Source of the DNA: Lachnospiraceae bacterium
GTDB taxonomy: Bacteria; Bacillota; Clostridia; Lachnospirales; Lachnospiraceae
Reading direction: 5' to 3'
Assembly (NCBI GenBank): GCA_030523275.1
Contig: JAUNIX010000011.1
Coordinates: 1-64,000 of the forward strand
DNA length: 64,000 nt
Within the stretch, counting starts at the first letter, position 1. Each line of letters starts with the position of its first letter. Positions 7,393 through 39,111 of this stretch are shown here, piece by piece. Position numbers and translations under genes: made by a program. The notes under the pieces are model-generated. The model did not search any database. It was not told where the DNA came from and worked only from the letters and a program-made list of their open reading frames with translations.

Positions 7393-7566
7393 TATATCAG
7401 ATGTGAGATGACTCCCGCCTCTACAGGTGGTGAGTAACAAGATTTTATCAGTGGGAGTTCACTCTCCCATCTGATATACGCTCCGCGAGGATGCGCAAGG
7501 ATTCGGATATGTATTATGTCAGTGAAAACTGACCCGAATCCTGCGCCAAGACTCGCGAGTCTTGAA
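7393..7566 (+). repeat. Structured intergenic repeat, copy A (174 bp)
   Basis: This GC-rich element in the 340-bp gap between EIIC and EIIB starts TATATCAGATG and ends with the palindrome AAGACTCGCGAGTCTT plus GAA. It folds into a 5' hairpin region closed by TATATCAGATG/CATCTGATATA, a long arm GCGC-A-AGGATTCGG/CCGAATCCT-GCGC capped by GTCAGT-GAAA-ACTGAC, and the terminal palindrome. Copy C (38938-39111) has the same length, and copy B (17037-17162, minus strand) is a shorter version. The remaining bases of the gap, 7272-7392 and 7567-7611, show no gene. Confidence 0.85.
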
Positions 7567-7611
7567 TGTAGCAGAAAATAGTCATGAAGTTAAGATAAGG
7601 AGAAGAAGATT

Positions 7612-15059: not shown

Positions 15060-16709
15060 ATGAAAAGTACCTACATTGTCGGACATAAGAATCCGGATAC
15101 TGATTCGATTTGTTCTGCATTAGCTTACACAAATCTGAAAAATACAATCAGTAAAGACAAACATTACAAAGCAAAACGTTTGGGTGATGTTAGCCCTGAA
15201 ACCAGATTTGTTCTGGATTATTTTGGAGTAGAAGAACCAGAACTTTTAACTGATATCTATCCAAGAATGACGGATATTTCACTGCATACCGTGCCAGCAA
15301 TTACGGGTAAGACATCCCTGAAAAAAGCATGGGATACTATGCGTCAGGAAAAAATTGTAACACTTCCTATTTTAAAGGAAGATAGAAAACTAGATGGAAT
15401 CATTACTGCTAGTGATATTACGTATTCTGATATGGATGTTTATGATAATAAGGTATTATCAAAAGCAAAAACACCATATAAGAATATTGTAGAGACATTA
15501 GATGGTGAATTGCTTGTTGGTGATATGGAGAGCTGTGTAGAATCAGGTAAGGTCATTGTATCAGCAGCAAATCCAGATTTAATGGAAAAGTTCATTGATG
15601 AAGGCGATGTTGTGATCATTGGTAATCGTTATGATGCCCAGTTCTGTGCTGTAGAAGCAGGTGCAAGTTTATTGATCGTATGTATGGGTGCAGAAGTATC
15701 CAAAACTATTCAGTCATTAGCAGCAGAAAAGGGATGTGATGTTATCACAACTCCTCATGATACATTTATTGCCAGCCGTTTGATCAGTCACAGTCTTCCA
15801 TGTGAATATTTCATGACTCCAGAAGAAAAGATTAGCTGTATTTATCAGTCAGAATTGATTGAAAATGTACAGGAAATCATGACTAAGAGTCGTTTCCGTT
15901 ATTATCCGGTTTTAAATACAAATAACCAATTTGAAGGATTTGCTTCTCGTCGTCGTCTGTTAGACTTCAGTCGCAGAGAAATCATCCTTGTTGACCATAA
16001 TGAGCCATCTCAGGCCGTTGACGGTATTGAAGAAGGAAATGTAATTGAAGTAATCGATCATCATAAGATTGGTGATCTGGAAACGATGGGACCAATCTAT
16101 TTCCGTAACCAGCCAGTTGGATGTACGGCAACTATCGTTACCCAGATGTATCGTGAGCAAGGTGTAGAAATTGAAAAAACAATTGCCGGTTTATTAGTTT
16201 CTGCAATTTTATCTGACACTTTGATGTTCCGTTCTCCAACTTGTACCCCACTTGACAAGGCAACAGCAGAAGAATTGGCAAAAATTGCAGAAATCGATAT
16301 TGAACAATATGCAACTGATATGTTTACAGCTGGAAGTGATTTAAAAGGAAAATCTGCTAGCGAAATTTGTTTCCAAGATTTCAAGAAATTTAATGCTGGA
16401 GATGTGAAATTTGGTGTTGGACAGCTTAATTCCATGAGTACGGATGAGTTAGAAGAAATCAAAGATACAATTCTTCCATATTTGCCAACTTTAATCGAAG
16501 AACAGGGACTTGATATGGTATTTATCATGTTGACAAATATTATCGAAGAAAGCACAAGTTTAGTGATGGCTGGAACAGATAGTGATGATGTTGTGACGAC
16601 TGCATTTGCAACGGAAGTAAATGACAGTGAGGCATATTTGCCAGGTGTTGTATCACGTAAGAAACAGTTAGTTCCAAATCTTCTGACAGCATTTCAGAAA
16701 TTAGCATAG
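15060..16709 (+). CDS. ppaC: CBS/DRTGG-containing Mn-dependent inorganic pyrophosphatase (family II)
   Basis: This 549-residue cytosolic DHH-family pyrophosphatase hydrolyses PPi to phosphate. The catalytic DHH part shows GHKNPDTDS at the N-terminus and DHNE and DHHKIGD further on. Two CBS halves with a DRTGG-like domain between them are inserted at roughly residues 65-300, as in Clostridium CBS-PPases regulated by adenine nucleotides and diadenosine polyphosphates. The start at 15060 gives the canonical N-terminus MKSTYIVGHKNPD. A GTG 12 bases upstream overlaps the AAGGAG ribosome site and is unlikely. A perfect hairpin terminator follows. Confidence 0.93.
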   Translation: MKSTYIVGHKNPDTDSICSALAYTNLKNTISKDKHYKAKRLGDVSPETRFVLDYFGVEEPELLTDIYPRMTDISLHTVPAITGKTSLKKAWDTMRQEKIVTLPILKEDRKLDGIITASDITYSDMDVYDNKVLSKAKTPYKNIVETLDGELLVGDMESCVESGKVIVSAANPDLMEKFIDEGDVVIIGNRYDAQFCAVEAGASLLIVCMGAEVSKTIQSLAAEKGCDVITTPHDTFIASRLISHSLPCEYFMTPEEKISCIYQSELIENVQEIMTKSRFRYYPVLNTNNQFEGFASRRRLLDFSRREIILVDHNEPSQAVDGIEEGNVIEVIDHHKIGDLETMGPIYFRNQPVGCTATIVTQMYREQGVEIEKTIAGLLVSAILSDTLMFRSPTCTPLDKATAEELAKIAEIDIEQYATDMFTAGSDLKGKSASEICFQDFKKFNAGDVKFGVGQLNSMSTDELEEIKDTILPYLPTLIEEQGLDMVFIMLTNIIEESTSLVMAGTDSDDVVTTAFATEVNDSEAYLPGVVSRKKQLVPNLLTAFQKLA

Positions 16710-16761: not shown

Positions 16762-16769
16762 TATTAATG

Positions 16770-17803
16770 TTATTCTTTTTTAGTTGTATTTTTAATATTC
16801 TCTATATATTTTTTTGCTTTTTCAGGTTTCAAATCAAATTTATTTTCTATTTTTTGTAGAATTTTTTCTTTGCTAATACCTTCTTCTAAAGCAAATTCTA
16901 TGAAAATGCGAATACATTCTTCACGTTCATCTTCTCTACCATCTTCATAGCTCCAACGTTTTTCATTTGCGATGTGTGCCTGTTCGTCATATTCGGTTAA
17001 AATCATATCTAACACCTCACCGCTGTGTTTTTTTATTCAAGACTCGTTCTCGAGTCTTGGCACGGGATTCGGGTCAGCCTTCGCTGACATAATACATATC
17101 CGAATCCCTGTGCATCCTTGCGGAGCATAATCAGATGGGAGATTGAACTCCCATCTGATATATCTGACAGAACATTTTGTTTAATACATTCATCAATTGC
17201 TTGCTTAATGGACTCTTCCAAATTATTATTTTGGGCCACGTAATATCGCACTTGATCAATAAAGATGGAATAATCATTTAATCTTTTACAACGTTGCATA
17301 ATCGTTTTGTTTTGCCCATAGTTTACGTTTAACACAATGGTTTGAAATTCCAGCCCCTTTTCCTTTAGTTTTGTATTAAATGAATCAGATAATTTCAATA
17401 TGCTTCTTTCTGGAAGATTCTTTTGTCCGTTATAAAAAACAATCGATTGTGGTGTCGGAAGCTTTATTTGTCGGCTTCCATAGACATCCAGATGTTGTTG
17501 AGCGACATATCCTTTTAAAAGTTCCACAGTATAGATTAGATTGCGATAAGGCATATTCGGAGACCAGGTGGATTGGTGTTCATATAGATTTAAAACACCA
17601 GAAACTAAAAAGGAAATATCATTCTTCATCGTCATATATATGACATTATCAATCGTATTAATGGTTACTTCTTCTGGATTTTTATAATTGGTTCCATTGA
17701 TAGCATTGTATAAATCTAACAATTCTTTCTTATCATTGAGAATAAATCGGAATAAACGGTCTTTATAGCTGCGATTGACTCTGATTTGTTCTGTCATATT
17801 CAT
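16770..17803 (-). pseudogene. Rpn-family recombination-promoting nuclease, interrupted by structured repeat
   Basis: The 5' part (17803 down to about 17163) encodes the nuclease domain of an Rpn/PD-(D/E)XK protein, with MKNDISFLVSG and NLYEHQST as the active-site region, and begins with a good AAAGGAGG start. After NVLSD the frame runs into repeat copy B and ends in about 40 repeat-encoded residues. The 3' part (about 17034 to 16770) resumes as KKHSGEVLDMILTEYDEQ and ends in the family's usual charged helical tail. The two halves fit one Rpn protein of about 300 residues, so the gene was broken by the repeat. A truncated nuclease lacking the tail might still be made. Confidence 0.85.
17037..17162 (-). 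repeat. Structured repeat, copy B (126 bp), inserted in the Rpn gene
   Basis: On the minus strand it has the same start (TATATCAGATG) and end (GTCTTGAA) as copies A and C, but a shortened 5' hairpin (GATGGGAG/CTCCCATC). The long arm is kept with paired changes: GCAC/GTGC where A has GCGC/GCGC, GGGATT/AATCCC where A has AGGATT/AATCCT, and tip GTCAGC-GAAG-GCTGAC where A has GTCAGT-GAAA-ACTGAC. The terminal stem is AAGACTCG-AGAA-CGAGTCTT. Confidence 0.85.
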
Positions 17804-17820
17804 AGCTTGTTCCTCCTTTT

Positions 17821-17885
17821 ATTATAATTGTTCTTTAAAGTGCTTGCAACAATTTGTAGTAATTACATAAATTTACAATTATAAT
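17821..17885. promoter_or_regulatory. Divergent control region with 11-bp inverted repeat
   Basis: ATTATAATTGT (17821-17831) and ACAATTATAAT (17875-17885) form a perfect inverted repeat between the divergent Rpn and recombinase genes. Each arm includes a TATAAT-like sequence. It may hold overlapping promoters or an operator or recombination site. None of these is proven. Confidence 0.4.
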
Positions 17886-18000
17886 AACATACAATATTAT
17901 GAATAACAACCATAATTTTACAGTCATAAAAACAATAATGGCTAATTATTGCCTATTTTTTAATATGCTGTTTAATTTAGTATATAAAAGGAGGCAAAAC

Positions 18001-18615
18001 ATGAAAAAATATGGTTATATTCGAGTATCATCAAAAGACCAAAATCCAGAACGTCAATATGCAGCATTAGAATCGTATGGAATATTAAAGAAAAATATTT
18101 ATATGGATCAAATTTCTGGAAAAAATTTTAAACGTCCTGCATATCGGTATTTGCTAGGCAAGATGAAGCACGGAGATGTGCTTGTTATTAAAAGTATCGA
18201 CAGACTAGGTAGAAACTATCAGGAGATTTTAGAACAATGGAGAAAAATTACAAAAGAAATAGGAGTGGATATTCAAGTAATTGATATGCCATTATTAAAT
18301 ACGAATTCTATGAATGCAGATTTAACGGGTGTATTTATTGCAGATTTGGTACTTCAGATTTTGGCTTATGTGGCGGAAACAGAAAGAGTATTCATGAAAC
18401 AAAGACAAGCAGAAGGAATAGCAGTAGCCAAACAAAAGGGTGTTCAATTTGGACCTAAAAAAATAGAAATGCCAAAAGAATTTGATTTTTATTATGAGAA
18501 ATGGAAAAATGGCGAGATTTCCAGTCGCAAAGGAGCAGAATATTTAAATATAAGTCATTCCACTTTTTATCGTCGTTGTAAAGAAAAAAATAAGAAAAAT
18601 TGTAACAAAAAGTAG
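18001..18615 (+). CDS. Small serine recombinase (resolvase/invertase family)
   Basis: This 204-residue serine recombinase has a catalytic domain YGYIRVSSKDQN with probable nucleophile Ser10, the motif SIDRLGRNYQEI and a long helix rich in Glu/Arg. A C-terminal helix-turn-helix (GAEYLNISHSTFYRR) binds DNA. The open frame extends upstream to 17899, but AAGGAGG eight bases before the ATG at 18001 and the family N-terminus fix the start. Its substrate site is unknown. It lies at the left edge of the small accessory island and could be the mover of that island or a remnant of a mobile element. Confidence 0.9.
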   Translation: MKKYGYIRVSSKDQNPERQYAALESYGILKKNIYMDQISGKNFKRPAYRYLLGKMKHGDVLVIKSIDRLGRNYQEILEQWRKITKEIGVDIQVIDMPLLNTNSMNADLTGVFIADLVLQILAYVAETERVFMKQRQAEGIAVAKQKGVQFGPKKIEMPKEFDFYYEKWKNGEISSRKGAEYLNISHSTFYRRCKEKNKKNCNKK

Positions 18616-18754
18616 ACAATAAGAAACAACTTGAATATTACCCTTCTTTTGCCTTTCTTTTATAAAAAATATTAATTTGTTGCACTAAAACTATTATATC
18701 AAAATTGTTTCATAAAGTCTGCTTTATGAATTAAATAGAAAGGGGAGTAATTGA

Positions 18755-18838
18755 ATGAGTCATTGGTGTAGAACATGTGGTGGTAAAGGTGTTCAAGTTT
18801 GTCCAGTGTGTAAAGGTGAGAAGTATATTAAGGATTAA
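18755..18838 (+). CDS. Tiny DnaJ-type zinc-finger peptide (27 aa)
   Basis: A 27-codon frame follows AAAGGGGAG. It encodes two Cys-x-x-Cys pairs in the form CRTCGGKG and CPVCKGEK, the CxxCxGxG pattern of DnaJ cysteine-rich repeats, enough to bind one zinc. Nothing else is present in the peptide. It lies between the recombinase and the unknown 146-residue protein. The strong ribosome site and the fitting motif support a real gene, although it is very short. Confidence 0.7.
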   Translation: MSHWCRTCGGKGVQVCPVCKGEKYIKD

Positions 18839-18894
18839 AACTATTGGTCAATATATTTATTGAAGAATATGAATGTTAAGGAGGAAAATATAAG

Positions 18895-19335
18895 ATGGCA
18901 TTTAATTTAAAGAACAATTGTGGTATGATATGTGATCCTATTTCATTTAGAGATACCTCAAATCTTAATGCTGAATATATTGCTGAACTTATGAAGGCAA
19001 CGGCTGATCGAATGGGAGTACCAATGAATGTTGGAATTGATACCGTAAAAGAGGGAGGTTTATTTGGAAAAACATATCCATGTGTTGTTATTACACATCC
19101 AAATCCACCTCAGCAGTACTTTACAGATGTGCTTATTATTAATGGAGCTTCAATAAATTTTTATTTTTTTGGAAATTCAAAAGCTAATTATGCAACAAAC
19201 AAAGCCAATCAAAGAAAAGGTACAATTACTGGTTCAATTTTAAATGCAATTTCTGGTACAGATGAAATGGCATATCAGCAGGAAATGTTATGGCATCGAC
19301 AAGTAATTGATACGTTTGAATCAAATATGAAATAA
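18895..19335 (+). CDS. Uncharacterised 146-residue protein of the JAMM/zinc-ribbon island
   Basis: I do not recognise this protein. It is 146 residues, soluble, with an N-terminal helical part (AEYIAELMKATADRMG), a probable beta-rich centre (YPCVVITHPNPPQQYF, then ASINFYFFGNS) and a C-terminal helical part. AAGGAGG precedes its ATG. It sits among three very small zinc-binding peptides and upstream of a JAMM-like protein, all on one strand with short gaps, so it is probably part of the same operon. Its role could be substrate or adaptor for the JAMM protein, which is speculative. Confidence 0.65.
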   Translation: MAFNLKNNCGMICDPISFRDTSNLNAEYIAELMKATADRMGVPMNVGIDTVKEGGLFGKTYPCVVITHPNPPQQYFTDVLIINGASINFYFFGNSKANYATNKANQRKGTITGSILNAISGTDEMAYQQEMLWHRQVIDTFESNMK

Positions 19336-19347
19336 TAGGTGATAAAT

Positions 19348-19461
19348 ATGGGAAGTGTGAAAATTATTATTTGTCCAAATTGTGGAAAAGAGATAGTAGT
19401 TATTTATGAAGCTCCTCAATATGAATGTCCCCACTGTGGTCAACGATTTGGACTTAGATAA
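19348..19461 (+). CDS. Zinc-ribbon peptide (37 aa)
   Basis: A 37-codon frame starting with GTGATAAAT-ATG encodes one zinc ribbon: CPNCGKE, a short beta hairpin, then CPHCGQRF. It starts 12 bases after the previous stop. The two CPxCG knuckles are typical of rubredoxin-like or zinc-ribbon folds. No further domain is present. It is likely a structural or adaptor peptide of the island. Confidence 0.7.
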   Translation: MGSVKIIICPNCGKEIVVIYEAPQYECPHCGQRFGLR

Positions 19462-19484
19462 AAAATCTTTAGGAGGATTTATTT

Positions 19485-19664
19485 ATGAAAGAAATAAAAA
19501 TTAGAATTGATTCTGTAGAGAAAAAAGAATACAAAAAAATTCCTATGGTGAAATTTGAAAGCGATTATTTTAAATGTAGAAGTTGTGGATATACAGTACG
19601 CATGCGCGTGTTAGGAAATACTGCTACTTGTAGCCAATGTGGTGGGACAATGGATCGTTGTTAA
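19485..19664 (+). CDS. Zinc-ribbon protein (59 aa)
   Basis: A 59-codon frame preceded by AGGAGG has a charged N-terminal strand/helix (KEIKIRIDSVEKKEYKK) followed by a zinc ribbon CRSCGY and CSQCGG and the C-terminal MDRC. It overlaps the start of the JAMM-like gene by up to 28 bases, which implies translational coupling. This is the third small zinc-binding gene within a kilobase. Confidence 0.72.
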   Translation: MKEIKIRIDSVEKKEYKKIPMVKFESDYFKCRSCGYTVRMRVLGNTATCSQCGGTMDRC

Positions 19665-20155
19665 ACACGAATATTTTTATTAGTAATAGGGCATTTTCTT
19701 TAATGATGACTGATATTAGTAGATATCCTAATGTTGAAGCAGGAGGTCTGATTTTAGGAATAAAAGAAGACAATATCTACTATGTTATTGAAGCTATTGA
19801 AGCCGGGGACGATGCGAGTAGAAGTGCTGGAACATTATTATGTGACGAGAAAAACATGATACATATGATTTCTACTTTGGTCAATATCTATGATCCCCAA
19901 ATAGATGTCATTGGAGTTTGGCACAAACATAATAACTGTAATAATCCACCTTTTTCTGATACTGATATGGAACTCCATAAGAAAATTCAAGGTTGGATTA
20001 ATTCTGATGTCATATCTATTTTATTCCAAAAAATAGATGATAGTGAATATAAAATGAAAGTATTTTTTATTGATAAACAGGGCAGTATCATCGAAAAAGA
20101 TTTCCTTATTATGGATATTAATAATATAGTGAAATATCGATTTGGACATTATTAA
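19637..20155 (+). CDS. JAMM/MPN-domain protein (prokaryotic JAB-type peptidase-like)
   Basis: The protein of up to 172 residues carries a JAMM-like metalloprotease signature: glutamate in VEAGGLILG, then WHKHNN followed by PPFSDTDM, giving H-x-H and a downstream S-x-x-D as zinc ligands and catalytic residues. Prokaryotic JAB proteins cleave isopeptide or peptide bonds, often removing ubiquitin-like proteins or releasing sulfur-carrier tails. The start is uncertain: ATG 19637 has no clear ribosome site, TTG 19658 follows GGTGGGA, and ATG 19703 is possible. No E1 or E2 gene is next to it. Confidence 0.75.
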   Translation: MWWDNGSLLNTNIFISNRAFSLMMTDISRYPNVEAGGLILGIKEDNIYYVIEAIEAGDDASRSAGTLLCDEKNMIHMISTLVNIYDPQIDVIGVWHKHNNCNNPPFSDTDMELHKKIQGWINSDVISILFQKIDDSEYKMKVFFIDKQGSIIEKDFLIMDINNIVKYRFGHY

Positions 20156-20169
20156 AGGAAAGTGATTAC

Positions 20170-20634
20170 ATGAGTTGTTCCTACTATGAATTTAGAGAAG
20201 GTAGCTATTATTGCTTGAAAAAGCATGATTATATTAATTCGGATGTTTATGAGCGATATTGTAGATCATATAATTATGATGAATGTCCGATTTATTTAGA
20301 TCATGATTCATCTGGAGGGTGTTATATAACTTCGGCTTGTATCTATGCTAAAGGTCTGCAAGATAATTGTTATGAATTAGAGACTCTTAGGGAATATAGA
20401 GATGACTGGCTATCGAAACAACCTGGCGGAAAAGATTTAATTAAAAATTATTATGCAATAGCACCTAAAATTGTATCATGTATTAACGAAAGAGAGAATA
20501 AAAATAGAATTTACAATGCGATATATGATCATATGGTTAAGCCATGTGTAGAATTGATAGAGCAGAAAAAATATACAGAAGCGAAAGAACTCTATAAAAA
20601 TATGACAGAGCAATTAAAAAAACAATATATTTAA
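20170..20634 (+). CDS. CFI-box-CTERM domain protein
   Basis: This 154-residue cysteine-rich protein has an N-terminal putative zinc site with four spaced cysteines (Cys3, Cys15, then YCRSYNYDECP). The C-terminal domain has GGCYITSACIYAKG followed by CYELETLREYRDDWL and a tail YYAIAPKIV, which matches my knowledge of the CFI-box C-terminal domain, here with CYI for CFI. The function of that domain is unknown. It starts 14 bp after the JAMM-like gene and is followed by a strong terminator, so it is the last gene of the island operon. Confidence 0.72.
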   Translation: MSCSYYEFREGSYYCLKKHDYINSDVYERYCRSYNYDECPIYLDHDSSGGCYITSACIYAKGLQDNCYELETLREYRDDWLSKQPGGKDLIKNYYAIAPKIVSCINERENKNRIYNAIYDHMVKPCVELIEQKKYTEAKELYKNMTEQLKKQYI

Positions 20635-20640
20635 CAATTG

Positions 20641-20666
20641 AGACACTTAGATGATTCTAGGTGTCT
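20641..20666 (+). terminator. Terminator of the JAMM/CFI-box operon
   Basis: An 11-bp stem (AGACACTTAGA with TCTAGGTGTCT, one G-T pair) has a 4-base loop and is followed by TTTGTTT. It begins 6 bases after the CFI-box stop. Confidence 0.85.
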
Positions 20667-20673
20667 TTTGTTT

Positions 20674-20797
20674 ACGCGAAGGCATAAGGCAAGCGGAAAC
20701 GACCCAGGTCGCCCTCTCTTACCGCAAGCGATAATTCTCCTTGTGCTTGCATTTCCATTTGCCGCCGCACGCGAACCGATGAAACTCGCAGAGCGTG
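20674..20797 (-). repeat. Structured GC-rich element, looser relative (copy E)
   Basis: Read on the minus strand it begins ACGCTCTGCGAG, close to the ACGCTCCGCGAG core of copies A, C and D. It then forms long stems: GGCAAATGGAAA against TTTCCGCTTGCC, with GCAAGC/GCTTGC and CGACC/GGTCG hairpins inside. It is a GC-rich island in AT-rich surroundings in the 364-bp gap before the helicase gene. The small open frame that crosses it is not credible as a gene. Confidence 0.5.
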
Positions 20798-20880
20798 TTT
20801 TATTCGGTTTGTTACAATTTTTACTTGTCTCATCAAATATAAATGTTTCATGATTCTAAAATTAATTTACAACAACCTTC

Positions 20881-20958
20881 TACGGAATTCTTGAAATCTC
20901 TGACATATGAAGTATGCTTAGTGTATGGAACCTAGTCAGAGATTTCAAGAACTTCGTA
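20881..20958. repeat. 24-bp inverted repeat upstream of the helicase gene
   Basis: Arms 20881-20904 and 20935-20958 pair over 24 positions, of which 22 are Watson-Crick (TTCTTGAAATCTCTGAC is perfect), around a 30-base loop. The right arm reaches a plausible -10 (TACAAT near 20966) for the helicase gene. It could be an operator, an RNA leader hairpin or the right border of the accessory island. Confidence 0.55.
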
Positions 20959-20998
20959 TTTATGATACAATAGTCCTATCAAACTAAAGGATTTTATT

Positions 20999-23368
20999 AT
21001 GATTTTACAGTTAAAGGACAATCAGATAAAAATATCCGTCAGGCACTTAGTAGAGTTTATTTTTCGCAGTGGAGATCTGACTACTGGAGGACGTGGAAAG
21101 TCTGCATTAGACGCGATGCAGGCAGGTAGCCGGATTCACAAGAAGATTCAACGCTCTATGGGTGTGGATTATAAAGAGGAAGTGTCGCTAAAGAAGACGT
21201 TTTATCATAGAGATTATGAGGTTTTGTTAGAAGGTCGCACAGATGGTATTTTTCCGAAAAAAGATGTGACAGTGATTGATGAAATCAAAGGCACATACCA
21301 AAATTTAGCACTAATGGAACAGGCAATCTGGGTGCATCAGGCACAGGCAATGTGTTATGGATACATCTATGGGCTGGAACACCATTTAGAACAGATTGGA
21401 ATTCAGATGACCTATTGCCATTTGGAGAGTGAAGAAATCAAACGTTTTTATGAACAATATTCGATGGCAGAATTGGAAGCGTGGATGGATGATTTGATGA
21501 CAAGCTTTTTTGTCTGGAGTGATTACGTCTATGGGGCAAAAAAGAAACGAAATATCTCAATTCGTGAACAGAAATTTCCGTTTCGATACCGAAAAGGACA
21601 AAAAAAGCTGACTGCTTCTGTTTATCAATCTCTGAAAAATAAGGAAATATTATTTGTGCAGGCACCAACGGGAATCGGGAAGACAATCTCAACGATTTAT
21701 CCGACCATCAAAAGGATGGAAGAAGCAGATGCGGATAAAATGTTTTATTTGACGGCAAAGACGATCACGAGAACTGCGGCAGAAGAAACGTTTCAGATTT
21801 TAAGAAAGCAAGGATTGCAATTTTCTACGGTGACGTTAACCGCAAAAGAAAAGATTTGTTTTCAAAAGGAGACGGATTGTGATGCAGAAAAATGCCCGTA
21901 TGCTAAAGGGCATTATGATAGAGTGAATCAGGCGTTATATGAGCTGGTTACAAATGAGACTGTCTTTACGAGAACTGTGATTGAAGAATATGCGAAACGA
22001 TATCAAGTTTGCCCTTATGAGCTGAGTCTTGATGTTTGCGATTTTGCGGATGGTATTATTTGTGATTATAATTATGTCTTTGATCCGAAAGTACAGTTAA
22101 AACGTTTTTTTGGTGAGGGAAAGCTACTTGACTTTTATTATCTTGTGGATGAGGCACATAATCTCGTTGATCGGGCAAGGACGATGTATAGTGCTGTATT
22201 GTGTAAAGAAGATTTTCTGGAAGTACGTCGTAGTATGCCAGAGTATGCAAAACGGCTCCGAAATGCTTTAAATCGATGCAACAAAGAAATGTTAGATTTG
22301 AAAAAGAATTGGGGAAGCAAAGCGGTGATCGCGGAGACGGATAAGTTGGTATATGCATTACTTCGCCTAGTTACAGAAGCAGATTTATTTTTGGAGGAAG
22401 AAGAAAATCCAGAAGTAAGAAATCGATTGTTAGAATTATATTTTCAAGTTCAACATTATTTAAATATGTATGACTTGATGGATGAGGGATATGAGATTTA
22501 TGTCTTAGCGTCAGAAAAAAGATATTACTGTAAGTTATTTTGTATCAATCCAGCGAATCAGTTGAAAAATTGTTTTGCATATGGCAAAGCCACAATATTG
22601 TTTTCAGCGACGTTGTTGCCAGTGAATTATTATAAAAATCTACTTACAGGTAATCCAGACGAAAAAGCGGTTTATGTTCCATCGCCATTTGATGATAAAA
22701 AAAGAGTTGTTTTGATCGCAGAGGATGTCACGAGCAAATATACGAGAAGAAATCAAATGGAATACGAAAAGATATTCTGGTATTTAGAAGCCCTTTTAAA
22801 TGGAAGAGAAGGAAATTATTTGATTTTTTTCCCGTCTTATGAAATGTTAGAAGCAGTTGCAGATTGTCTATATGAACACGGTATAGACATTAAGGCAGAC
22901 ATTTTGATACAAAAACAGGAGATGCACGAAGAAGAGAGAGAAATCTTTTTACAGGAATTTACGAGAAAACGGAAGAAATCTTTGATCGCGCTTTGTGTAC
23001 TGGGAGGCATTTTTTCAGAAGGAATTGATTTGACAAAGGACGCACTCATTGGTACGATGGTTGTCGGTACAGGATTGCCGGGGGTTTCTTTTGAACAAAA
23101 TCTCTTGAAAGATTATTTTGATCAGAAAATCGGCTCTGGATTTGATTACGCCTATCGATATCCGGGGATGAACAAAGTATTACAGGCTGCTGGCAGAGTG
23201 ATTCGTACCAAAGAAGATGAAGGCGTAATTTTATTGTTGGATGAAAGATTATTGGGATATGAATATCAGGGGCTATTTCCTATGGAATGGCAGGATCGAA
23301 AGCGCACATCACTTATGCGAATAGCATCTGATATCAACAAATTTTGGAAAGGAAGAGAACAAATATGA
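20999..23368 (+). CDS. DinG/Rad3-type Fe-S helicase with N-terminal Cas4-like nuclease domain
   Basis: This 789-residue superfamily 2 DNA helicase has Walker A APTGIGKT (about residue 221), the DEAH box VDEAHN (about residue 383) and cysteines [16 protein letters not shown] plus a later VCPYE, placed to bind the XPD-type [4Fe-4S] cluster. The N-terminal 180 residues, with [11 protein letters not shown] and VIDEIKG, match a Cas4/RecB-like PD-(D/E)XK nuclease core. Such fused proteins are usual in Lachnospiraceae and probably act in DNA repair. Its stop overlaps the queF start (ATGA). An inverted repeat lies just upstream. Confidence 0.9.
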
Positions 23369-38937: not shown

Positions 38938-39111
38938 TATATCAGATGTGAGATGACTCCCACCTCTACAAGTGGTGAGTAACAAGATTTTATCAGTGGG
39001 AGTTCAATCTCCCATCTGATATACGCTCCGCGAGGATGCGCAGGGATTCGGATATGTATTATGTCAGTGAAAACTGACCCAAATCCCGCGCCAAGACTCG
39101 CGAGTCTTGAA
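38938..39111 (+). repeat. Structured repeat, copy C (174 bp), between the two parts of NrdD
   Basis: It is the same length as copy A and nearly identical to it, from TATATCAGATG to the palindrome AAGACTCGCGAGTCTT plus GAA. The long arm reads GCGC-A-GGGATTCGG against CCAAATCCC-GCGC with tip GTCAGT-GAAA-ACTGAC. It fills almost all of the gap between the nrdD stop (38926) and the AGGAGG site (39117) of the radical-domain ORF. Confidence 0.88.

Follow-up and report, generated by a model that had tools for sequence, protein, structure and literature searches.

What is known of bacterial JAMM peptidases mostly concerns their partnership with ubiquitin-like or sulfur-carrier pathways. The closest described systems in which they occur are the E1-E2-JAB operons, represented by Bil/Bub, type II CBASS (Cap2-Cap3) and 6A-MBL. 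The six-gene operon from a gut-type Lachnospiraceae bacterium that is described here resembles these systems in encoding a JAMM protein with the same catalytic set, for which they provide the nearest profile matches, but the islet that carries it lacks E1, E2 and ubiquitin-like genes and holds instead zinc mini-proteins, a member of a 146-aa protein family and a CFI-box protein. The FtsK/WXG100 type VII-like loci of Clostridia, which occur with an E2-JAB-E1 set (loci L014 and L015) or with DnaK/DnaJ (locus L032), contain the closest JAMM relatives in Lachnospiraceae and one relative of the 146-aa protein, whereas a secretion ATPase, a WXG100 protein and an effector are all missing from the islet. 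CFI-box-CTERM proteins (NF041770) are represented by the last gene of the operon, which scores above the cut-off of the model and shares its layout, a Cys-rich domain followed by the CFI-box, with proteins of two other genomes (L068 and L069); in contrast, most members from Lachnospiraceae have other N-terminal regions, and others are found with dynamins or with VWA/PP2C genes. As in the cargo linked to recombinases in ICEs and defence islands, a small serine recombinase adjoins the genes, and a second example lies on an ICE-like element with a SIR2-HerA pair; unlike such cargo, the islet contains no known defence gene, and mobility and attachment sites are here putative. No PADLOC system fits the operon as a whole and no named system was found for it, in agreement with the initial annotation, which had not recognized a described system. 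The 146-aa family has no library entry and is found in the company of tiny cysteine proteins.

The window analyzed, a stretch of 64,000 nt, carries on its forward strand (18755-20634) six linked genes separated by short gaps and ended by a single terminator. This transcription-unit-like cluster is a real operon, and the compact one-strand arrangement claimed for it previously was confirmed at these positions. The first gene (18755-18838), preceded by the ribosome-binding site GGGGAG, encodes a 27-aa mini zinc finger of the DnaJ type (CxxCxGxG..CxxCxG), with weak matches to the DnaJ central domain. It is followed by the gene for the 146-aa protein (18895-19335) and by that for a 37-aa zinc ribbon with two CPxCG knuckles (19348-19461 from its ATG; an alternative GTG at 19339 would give 40 aa), which matches zinc-ribbon models at 1e-5 to 1e-3, below their cut-offs. 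The fourth gene (19485-19664), with AGGAGG as its ribosome-binding site, encodes a 59-aa zinc ribbon that likewise shows only weak ribbon matches. The JAMM/JAB peptidase (19658-20155) would have 165 aa from TTG 19658, a start that overlaps the stop of the 59-aa gene, or 172 aa from the alternative ATG 19637; the TTG is probably the true start, because the relatives start there. The last gene (20170-20634) encodes the 154-aa CFI-box protein, and the operon ends at a Rho-independent terminator-like hairpin (20640-20667) of 12 pairs with a T-rich tail. Ribosome-binding sites precede all the genes except that of the JAMM protein, which has no obvious one. Cysteine content is high in four of the six products, and the zinc-type nature attributed to the small proteins is borne out by their motifs together with the weak ribbon and DnaJ matches. 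The complete six-gene set was not found in any other genome searched, and is known from this one only.

The operon belongs to an inserted islet, a point absent from the initial annotation. This islet (16762-20998, ends approximate) has a length of ~4.2 kb and lies between ppaC, which ends at 16709, and dinG, which starts at 20999. In three genomes of the same genus (L024, L025, and L026), ppaC and dinG are adjacent, with a spacing of about 110-210 bp and without the islet, and it is relative to this empty site that the islet is inserted; in a fourth relative (G463), the ppaC/dinG region is arranged differently. The GC content is also low, with 0.314 for the islet and 0.307 for the operon versus 0.37-0.38 for the flanking genes. 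In addition to the operon, the islet contains an Rpn-like gene of the Transposase_31/PD-(D/E)XK type on the reverse strand (17033-17803; Pfam PF04754, 0.0017, below cut-off) and, on the forward strand, the gene for a small serine recombinase of the resolvase/invertase type (18001-18615; 204 aa), whose matches to PF00239 (1.1e-28) and to the DNA invertase family phrog_125 (2.3e-51) substantiate the serine recombinase reported next to the operon. In its 3' part, the Rpn-like gene is broken by one copy (17036-17160) of a dispersed repeat of ~126 bp, present in three copies that are 87-89% identical, the other two being located at 7446-7567 and 38991-39111. A 15-nt perfect inverted repeat flanks the operon on both sides (left arm 18595-18609, forward strand; right arm 20808-20822, reverse strand), and is a possible recombinase site, although only suggestive as a site of inversion or recombination because 11 of 200 shuffles hold a repeat of equal length. 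The cassette is probably the cargo of a mobile element, its mobility being putative.

The assignment of the fifth product to the JAMM proteins relies on matches to the PADLOC JAB models (7.7e-8) and on the match of its family profile to Rpn11-like structures (archaeal 6fju, 1.1e-6), since Pfam Prok-JAB (2.1e-4; 21.6 bits versus a cut-off of 25) falls below its curated threshold. The protein also matches the JAB end of the NCBIfam 6A-MBL cap2_3 model (3.5e-12), with a score well below the cut-off of that model. The initial annotation had called this product a JAMM protein, and it was tested whether its residues align with the catalytic set. In an alignment of five members (A5), E34, H96, H98, S107, and D110 (numbered from ATG 19637) are invariant, while the spacing after HxH, at eight residues, exceeds that of the four relatives by one. 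The active-site set is intact, and the nearest relatives are the JAB peptidases of E1/E2 systems.

Three other JAMM matches were obtained in a search of 299 genomes of the family. Two of them (L014 and L015) correspond to a JAB gene located beside an E2-like gene, a ThiF E1, a large FtsK ATPase, and WXG100-like genes, while the third (L016) is a JAB-ThiF fusion. No JAMM protein appeared in the viral contigs searched. Both L014 (6677-14478) and L015 (1-7630 and 7909-8457) place a ubiquitin-like set, composed of E2-like, JAB and ThiF E1 genes, within a type-VII-like locus that encodes a large FtsK, WXG100-like proteins and a papain/C39-like protein.

The kinship of the JAMM protein to peptidases of conjugation systems raises the question of whether the operon is what remains of a ubiquitin-like conjugation operon, or else a sulfur-carrier system, either of which would depend on an E1 taken from the host, one of the small proteins being the modifier. 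This would agree with the usual pairing of JAMM peptidases with ubiquitin-like or sulfur-carrier proteins, and with the presence in the genome of a ThiF-like E1 and of a MoeB-like E1 that has its own JAB. The link to such pathways, which had been raised in the initial annotation, was nevertheless not sustained. No E1 (ThiF), E2 or ubiquitin-like gene was detected in the operon or the islet with Pfam, PADLOC, and NCBIfam, so the earlier statement that no E1 or E2 is adjacent holds, and none of the operon products has a Gly-Gly C-terminus or matches a ubiquitin-like family. The clear ThiF matches of the genome are limited to a MoeB-like, a TcdA-like, and a ThiF-like protein (names given from reading the sequences), in addition to one sub-cut-off match, and these clear E1s look like housekeeping enzymes with partners of their own. 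The ThiF-like gene adjoins ThiS- and ThiG-like genes, and the MoeB-like gene, located among genes of sulfur metabolism, is directly followed by its JAB gene, with TusA-like and thioredoxin genes adjacent (L070, 1471-2702), in a sulfur-carrier set that is distinct from the islet JAMM; no second JAMM of the subfamily of the islet protein was found in the genome. The 146-aa protein shows no similarity to E2 enzymes either, in tests that are weak, as described below. A remnant of this kind is therefore considered improbable, although a CGG within the 59-aa protein leaves room for an unusual modifier that would be cleaved internally.

The same kinship, together with the mobile location and the lack of conjugating partners of its own, is also compatible with a role in counter-defense, in which an orphan JAMM encoded by a mobile element would strip the modifiers attached by rival E1/E2 systems (Bil/Bub, type II CBASS, or the 6A type). 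This proposal, however, leaves the five companion genes unexplained, and no ubiquitin-like system that could be counteracted was found in the genome itself, so we regard such deconjugation as quite unlikely.

The 146-aa protein has no match in Pfam, NCBIfam, PHROGs, or PADLOC (the best NCBIfam hit, with an E-value of 0.019, is noise). Whole-genome searches yielded four relatives (in G086, G677, G914, and G1386), and the alignment of the family reveals a KxGGLF motif, a central YF/YxK stretch, an FxxGxSK motif, and a C-terminal helix. No relatives were detected in plasmids and phages (tblastn), in viral contigs (queried both with individual sequences and with the A1 and A2 alignments), or in genome contigs (two scans). 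A 104-aa sequence (L039; E-value 4e-4) is a candidate relative. Four other weak hits (L004, L005, L031, and L034) were considered spurious, with a broken frame or lying on the opposite strand of conserved genes.

In G086, the gene for the relative is followed by those for a 40-aa CxxC..C..C..F protein and a 46-aa zinc ribbon, with a recombinase on the opposite strand that is 44% identical to that of the islet. The 46-aa protein is homologous to the 59-aa protein of the window (45% identity over 33 aa; phmmer about 4e-4). The contig encodes a large serine recombinase and a TrwB-type coupling protein, as in a conjugative-type, ICE-like element, and it also carries a SIR2-HerA defense pair (L003, 13614-16482) ~7 kb from the relative. 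In G1386, an 82-aa cysteine-rich gene lies directly upstream of the relative. The association was evaluated in 253 kb of comparison DNA, in which ORFs of 25-95 aa were counted if they encoded four or more Cys and a CxxC and were preceded by a ribosome-binding site. Six such ORFs were found, two in the operon, one beside the gene in G086, one beside that in G1386, and two elsewhere. A small cysteine ORF is thus adjacent in three of the five family loci, versus ~0.04 expected from the remaining two ORFs, in a comparison that is small but fair, as the loci other than the window were picked for holding the 146-aa family and not for cysteine proteins. The 146-aa family is therefore linked with tiny cysteine proteins, clearly above chance. 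Regarding the co-occurrence of homologues in other genomes, which the initial annotation had set as a test, the answer is half positive. In G086, the 146-aa relative has a related recombinase, the 40-aa cysteine protein and the homologue of the 59-aa protein as neighbors, and in G1386 it directly follows a cysteine-rich protein, but neither the JAMM nor the CFI-box protein was ever found beside these relatives.

The abundance of cysteine-rich products (four of six, including a DnaJ-type finger) could also indicate a stress-controlled operon for zinc or redox homeostasis, in which the small proteins would serve as a metal reservoir or as zinc-dependent chaperones. Such a function is of low probability, given that the distribution is sporadic and islet-borne, that a specific peptidase would not be expected, and that the islet has neither a metal transporter nor a regulator.

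A different context was observed for the relative in G677 (L032, 1-8460), which is encoded in an operon with DnaK, GrpE-like, FtsK, WXG-like, papain/C39-like, and DnaJ-TPR proteins, while the chromosomal relative in G914 stands alone, without such neighbors. At L032, chaperones are tied to a type-VII-like locus. The FtsK (6e-38) and papain/C39-like (1e-19) proteins of G677 have homologues in the corresponding proteins of the E2-JAB-E1 loci, which means that a single class of FtsK/WXG100 loci contains relatives both of the JAMM and of the 146-aa protein, though never at one locus. This homology is the main support for the idea that the operon is a detached accessory set of type-VII-like loci, in which the 146-aa protein would assist secretion as a chaperone, and exported proteins or immunity proteins would be matured by the JAMM peptidase. 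The occurrence of JAMM relatives in the E2-JAB-E1-FtsK-WXG-type loci (L014 and L015), and of a 146-aa relative in the DnaK/DnaJ-FtsK-WXG-type locus, argues in the same direction. Nevertheless, the ORFs of the islet include no WXG100 protein, no FtsK/EssC-type ATPase, and no exported toxin, and the 146-aa family and the JAMM occur together at no single locus other than the window.

Structural comparisons bear on this alternative as well. The single-sequence AlphaFold model of the 146-aa protein (pLDDT 54, pTM 0.54) predicts one helix, four strands, and C-terminal helices. Foldseek retrieved PsbP, DcrB, and the secretion chaperone EagT6 (best E-value 0.03), and VIA retrieved KA1 domains (Z about 8). 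The presence of EagT6 and PsbP among these weak matches would suit a secretion chaperone, but the matches are at chance level for a model of such pLDDT and are not significant, and no fold is claimed. Altogether, a detached secretion set appears unlikely. The initial annotation had also suggested examining the 146-aa protein for an E2 or ubiquitin-like fold, of which no sign was seen: hhalign gave a probability of 0.2% against the E2-like profile, and neither fold appeared in the Foldseek and VIA lists, which for a low-confidence model constitute a weak test and not an exclusion.

The CFI-box protein predicted for the last gene was verified with NF041770 (2.6e-15; 56 bits versus a cut-off of 40). 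It consists of an N-terminal Cys-rich domain (approximately residues 3-45) and the CFI-box domain (residues 51-123), and its model has a pLDDT of 56. The CFI-box domain is common, being present in 36 of 130 genomes of the family, mostly in proteins of ~250-340 aa, and the window's layout (a CxxC..C..C domain followed by the CFI-box) recurs in the two genomes mentioned above; no match was found in the viral contigs searched, nor did the term occur in the papers listed by a literature search. By eye, the N-terminal domain resembles the free-standing 40-aa protein of G086 and the 82-aa protein of G1386, a likeness that is a suggestion only, as phmmer did not join them. On an Escherichia coli plasmid (L012, 1-7315), a CFI-box protein is encoded with three dynamin-like genes, one of which matches PADLOC LeoBC, and on a Lysinibacillus plasmid (L010, 4820-9164), a kinase-like CFI-box protein is encoded with VWA and PP2C genes.

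The explanation that we tentatively prefer, while granting it somewhat less than an even chance, is that the operon is recombinase-associated mobile cargo encoding a cytosolic complex of adaptor, zinc proteins, and JAMM, a putative conflict or immunity module that would cut a client without a conjugation cascade of its own. In this complex, the 146-aa protein would serve as an adaptor or chaperone that binds or holds client polypeptides. The mini-proteins of the zinc-ribbon and DnaJ types would provide docking or client-binding subunits, the delivered client would be cut by the JAMM at a peptide or isopeptide bond, and the cysteine-rich CFI-box protein would be a further docking or output subunit. 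The client would be pre-existing, and the benefit would most likely lie in biological conflict, that is, in immunity against phages, other elements, or a toxin. The adaptor or chaperone role is proposed because the relative in G677 shares its operon with DnaK, GrpE-like, DnaJ-TPR, FtsK, and WXG-like proteins, a single genomic context that, with the low-confidence model, makes it a tentative assignment. The interpretation as mobile cargo follows from the recombinase islet, the empty site in three relatives, and the low GC content. The small cysteine proteins that accompany the relatives in G086 and G1386, the intact catalytic set of the JAMM, and the restriction of the clear ThiF matches of the genome to MoeB-like, TcdA-like, and ThiF-like proteins also speak for this explanation. 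The conflict function is supported by the G086 element with its SIR2-HerA pair, and by the frequent location of recombinases next to anti-phage genes in defense islands, as indicated in PMC12529663. Against it, a recombinase neighbor does not show defense, and the chief weakness is that the full set occurs in one genome, so that the JAMM and CFI-box genes, neither of which was seen to accompany a 146-aa relative in another genome, may represent a second cargo that is unrelated to an adjoining core formed by the 146-aa and zinc proteins. A bolder version, a putative mobile protein-editing immune system free of E1 and E2, in which the new adaptor family, together with zinc-ribbon mini-proteins that are interchangeable and perhaps themselves the removed tags, would guide the JAMM, must be considered highly improbable.

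An intact JAMM in a recombinase-linked cassette without ubiquitin-like or sulfur-carrier partners would point to another use for these peptidases. In turn, the 146-aa family, named by its GGLF motif, is a testable family whose members are easily searched for.

Two further features were observed between the operon and dinG. Directly upstream of dinG there is a long hairpin (20881-20958) with 24-nt arms that are 92% complementary and a 30-nt loop; the short stretches between ppaC and dinG in the relatives showed no such hairpin. Downstream of the operon, a GC-rich patch (20680-20820; 0.504) looks like another dispersed element of the genome, part of it being similar to sequence near L071.
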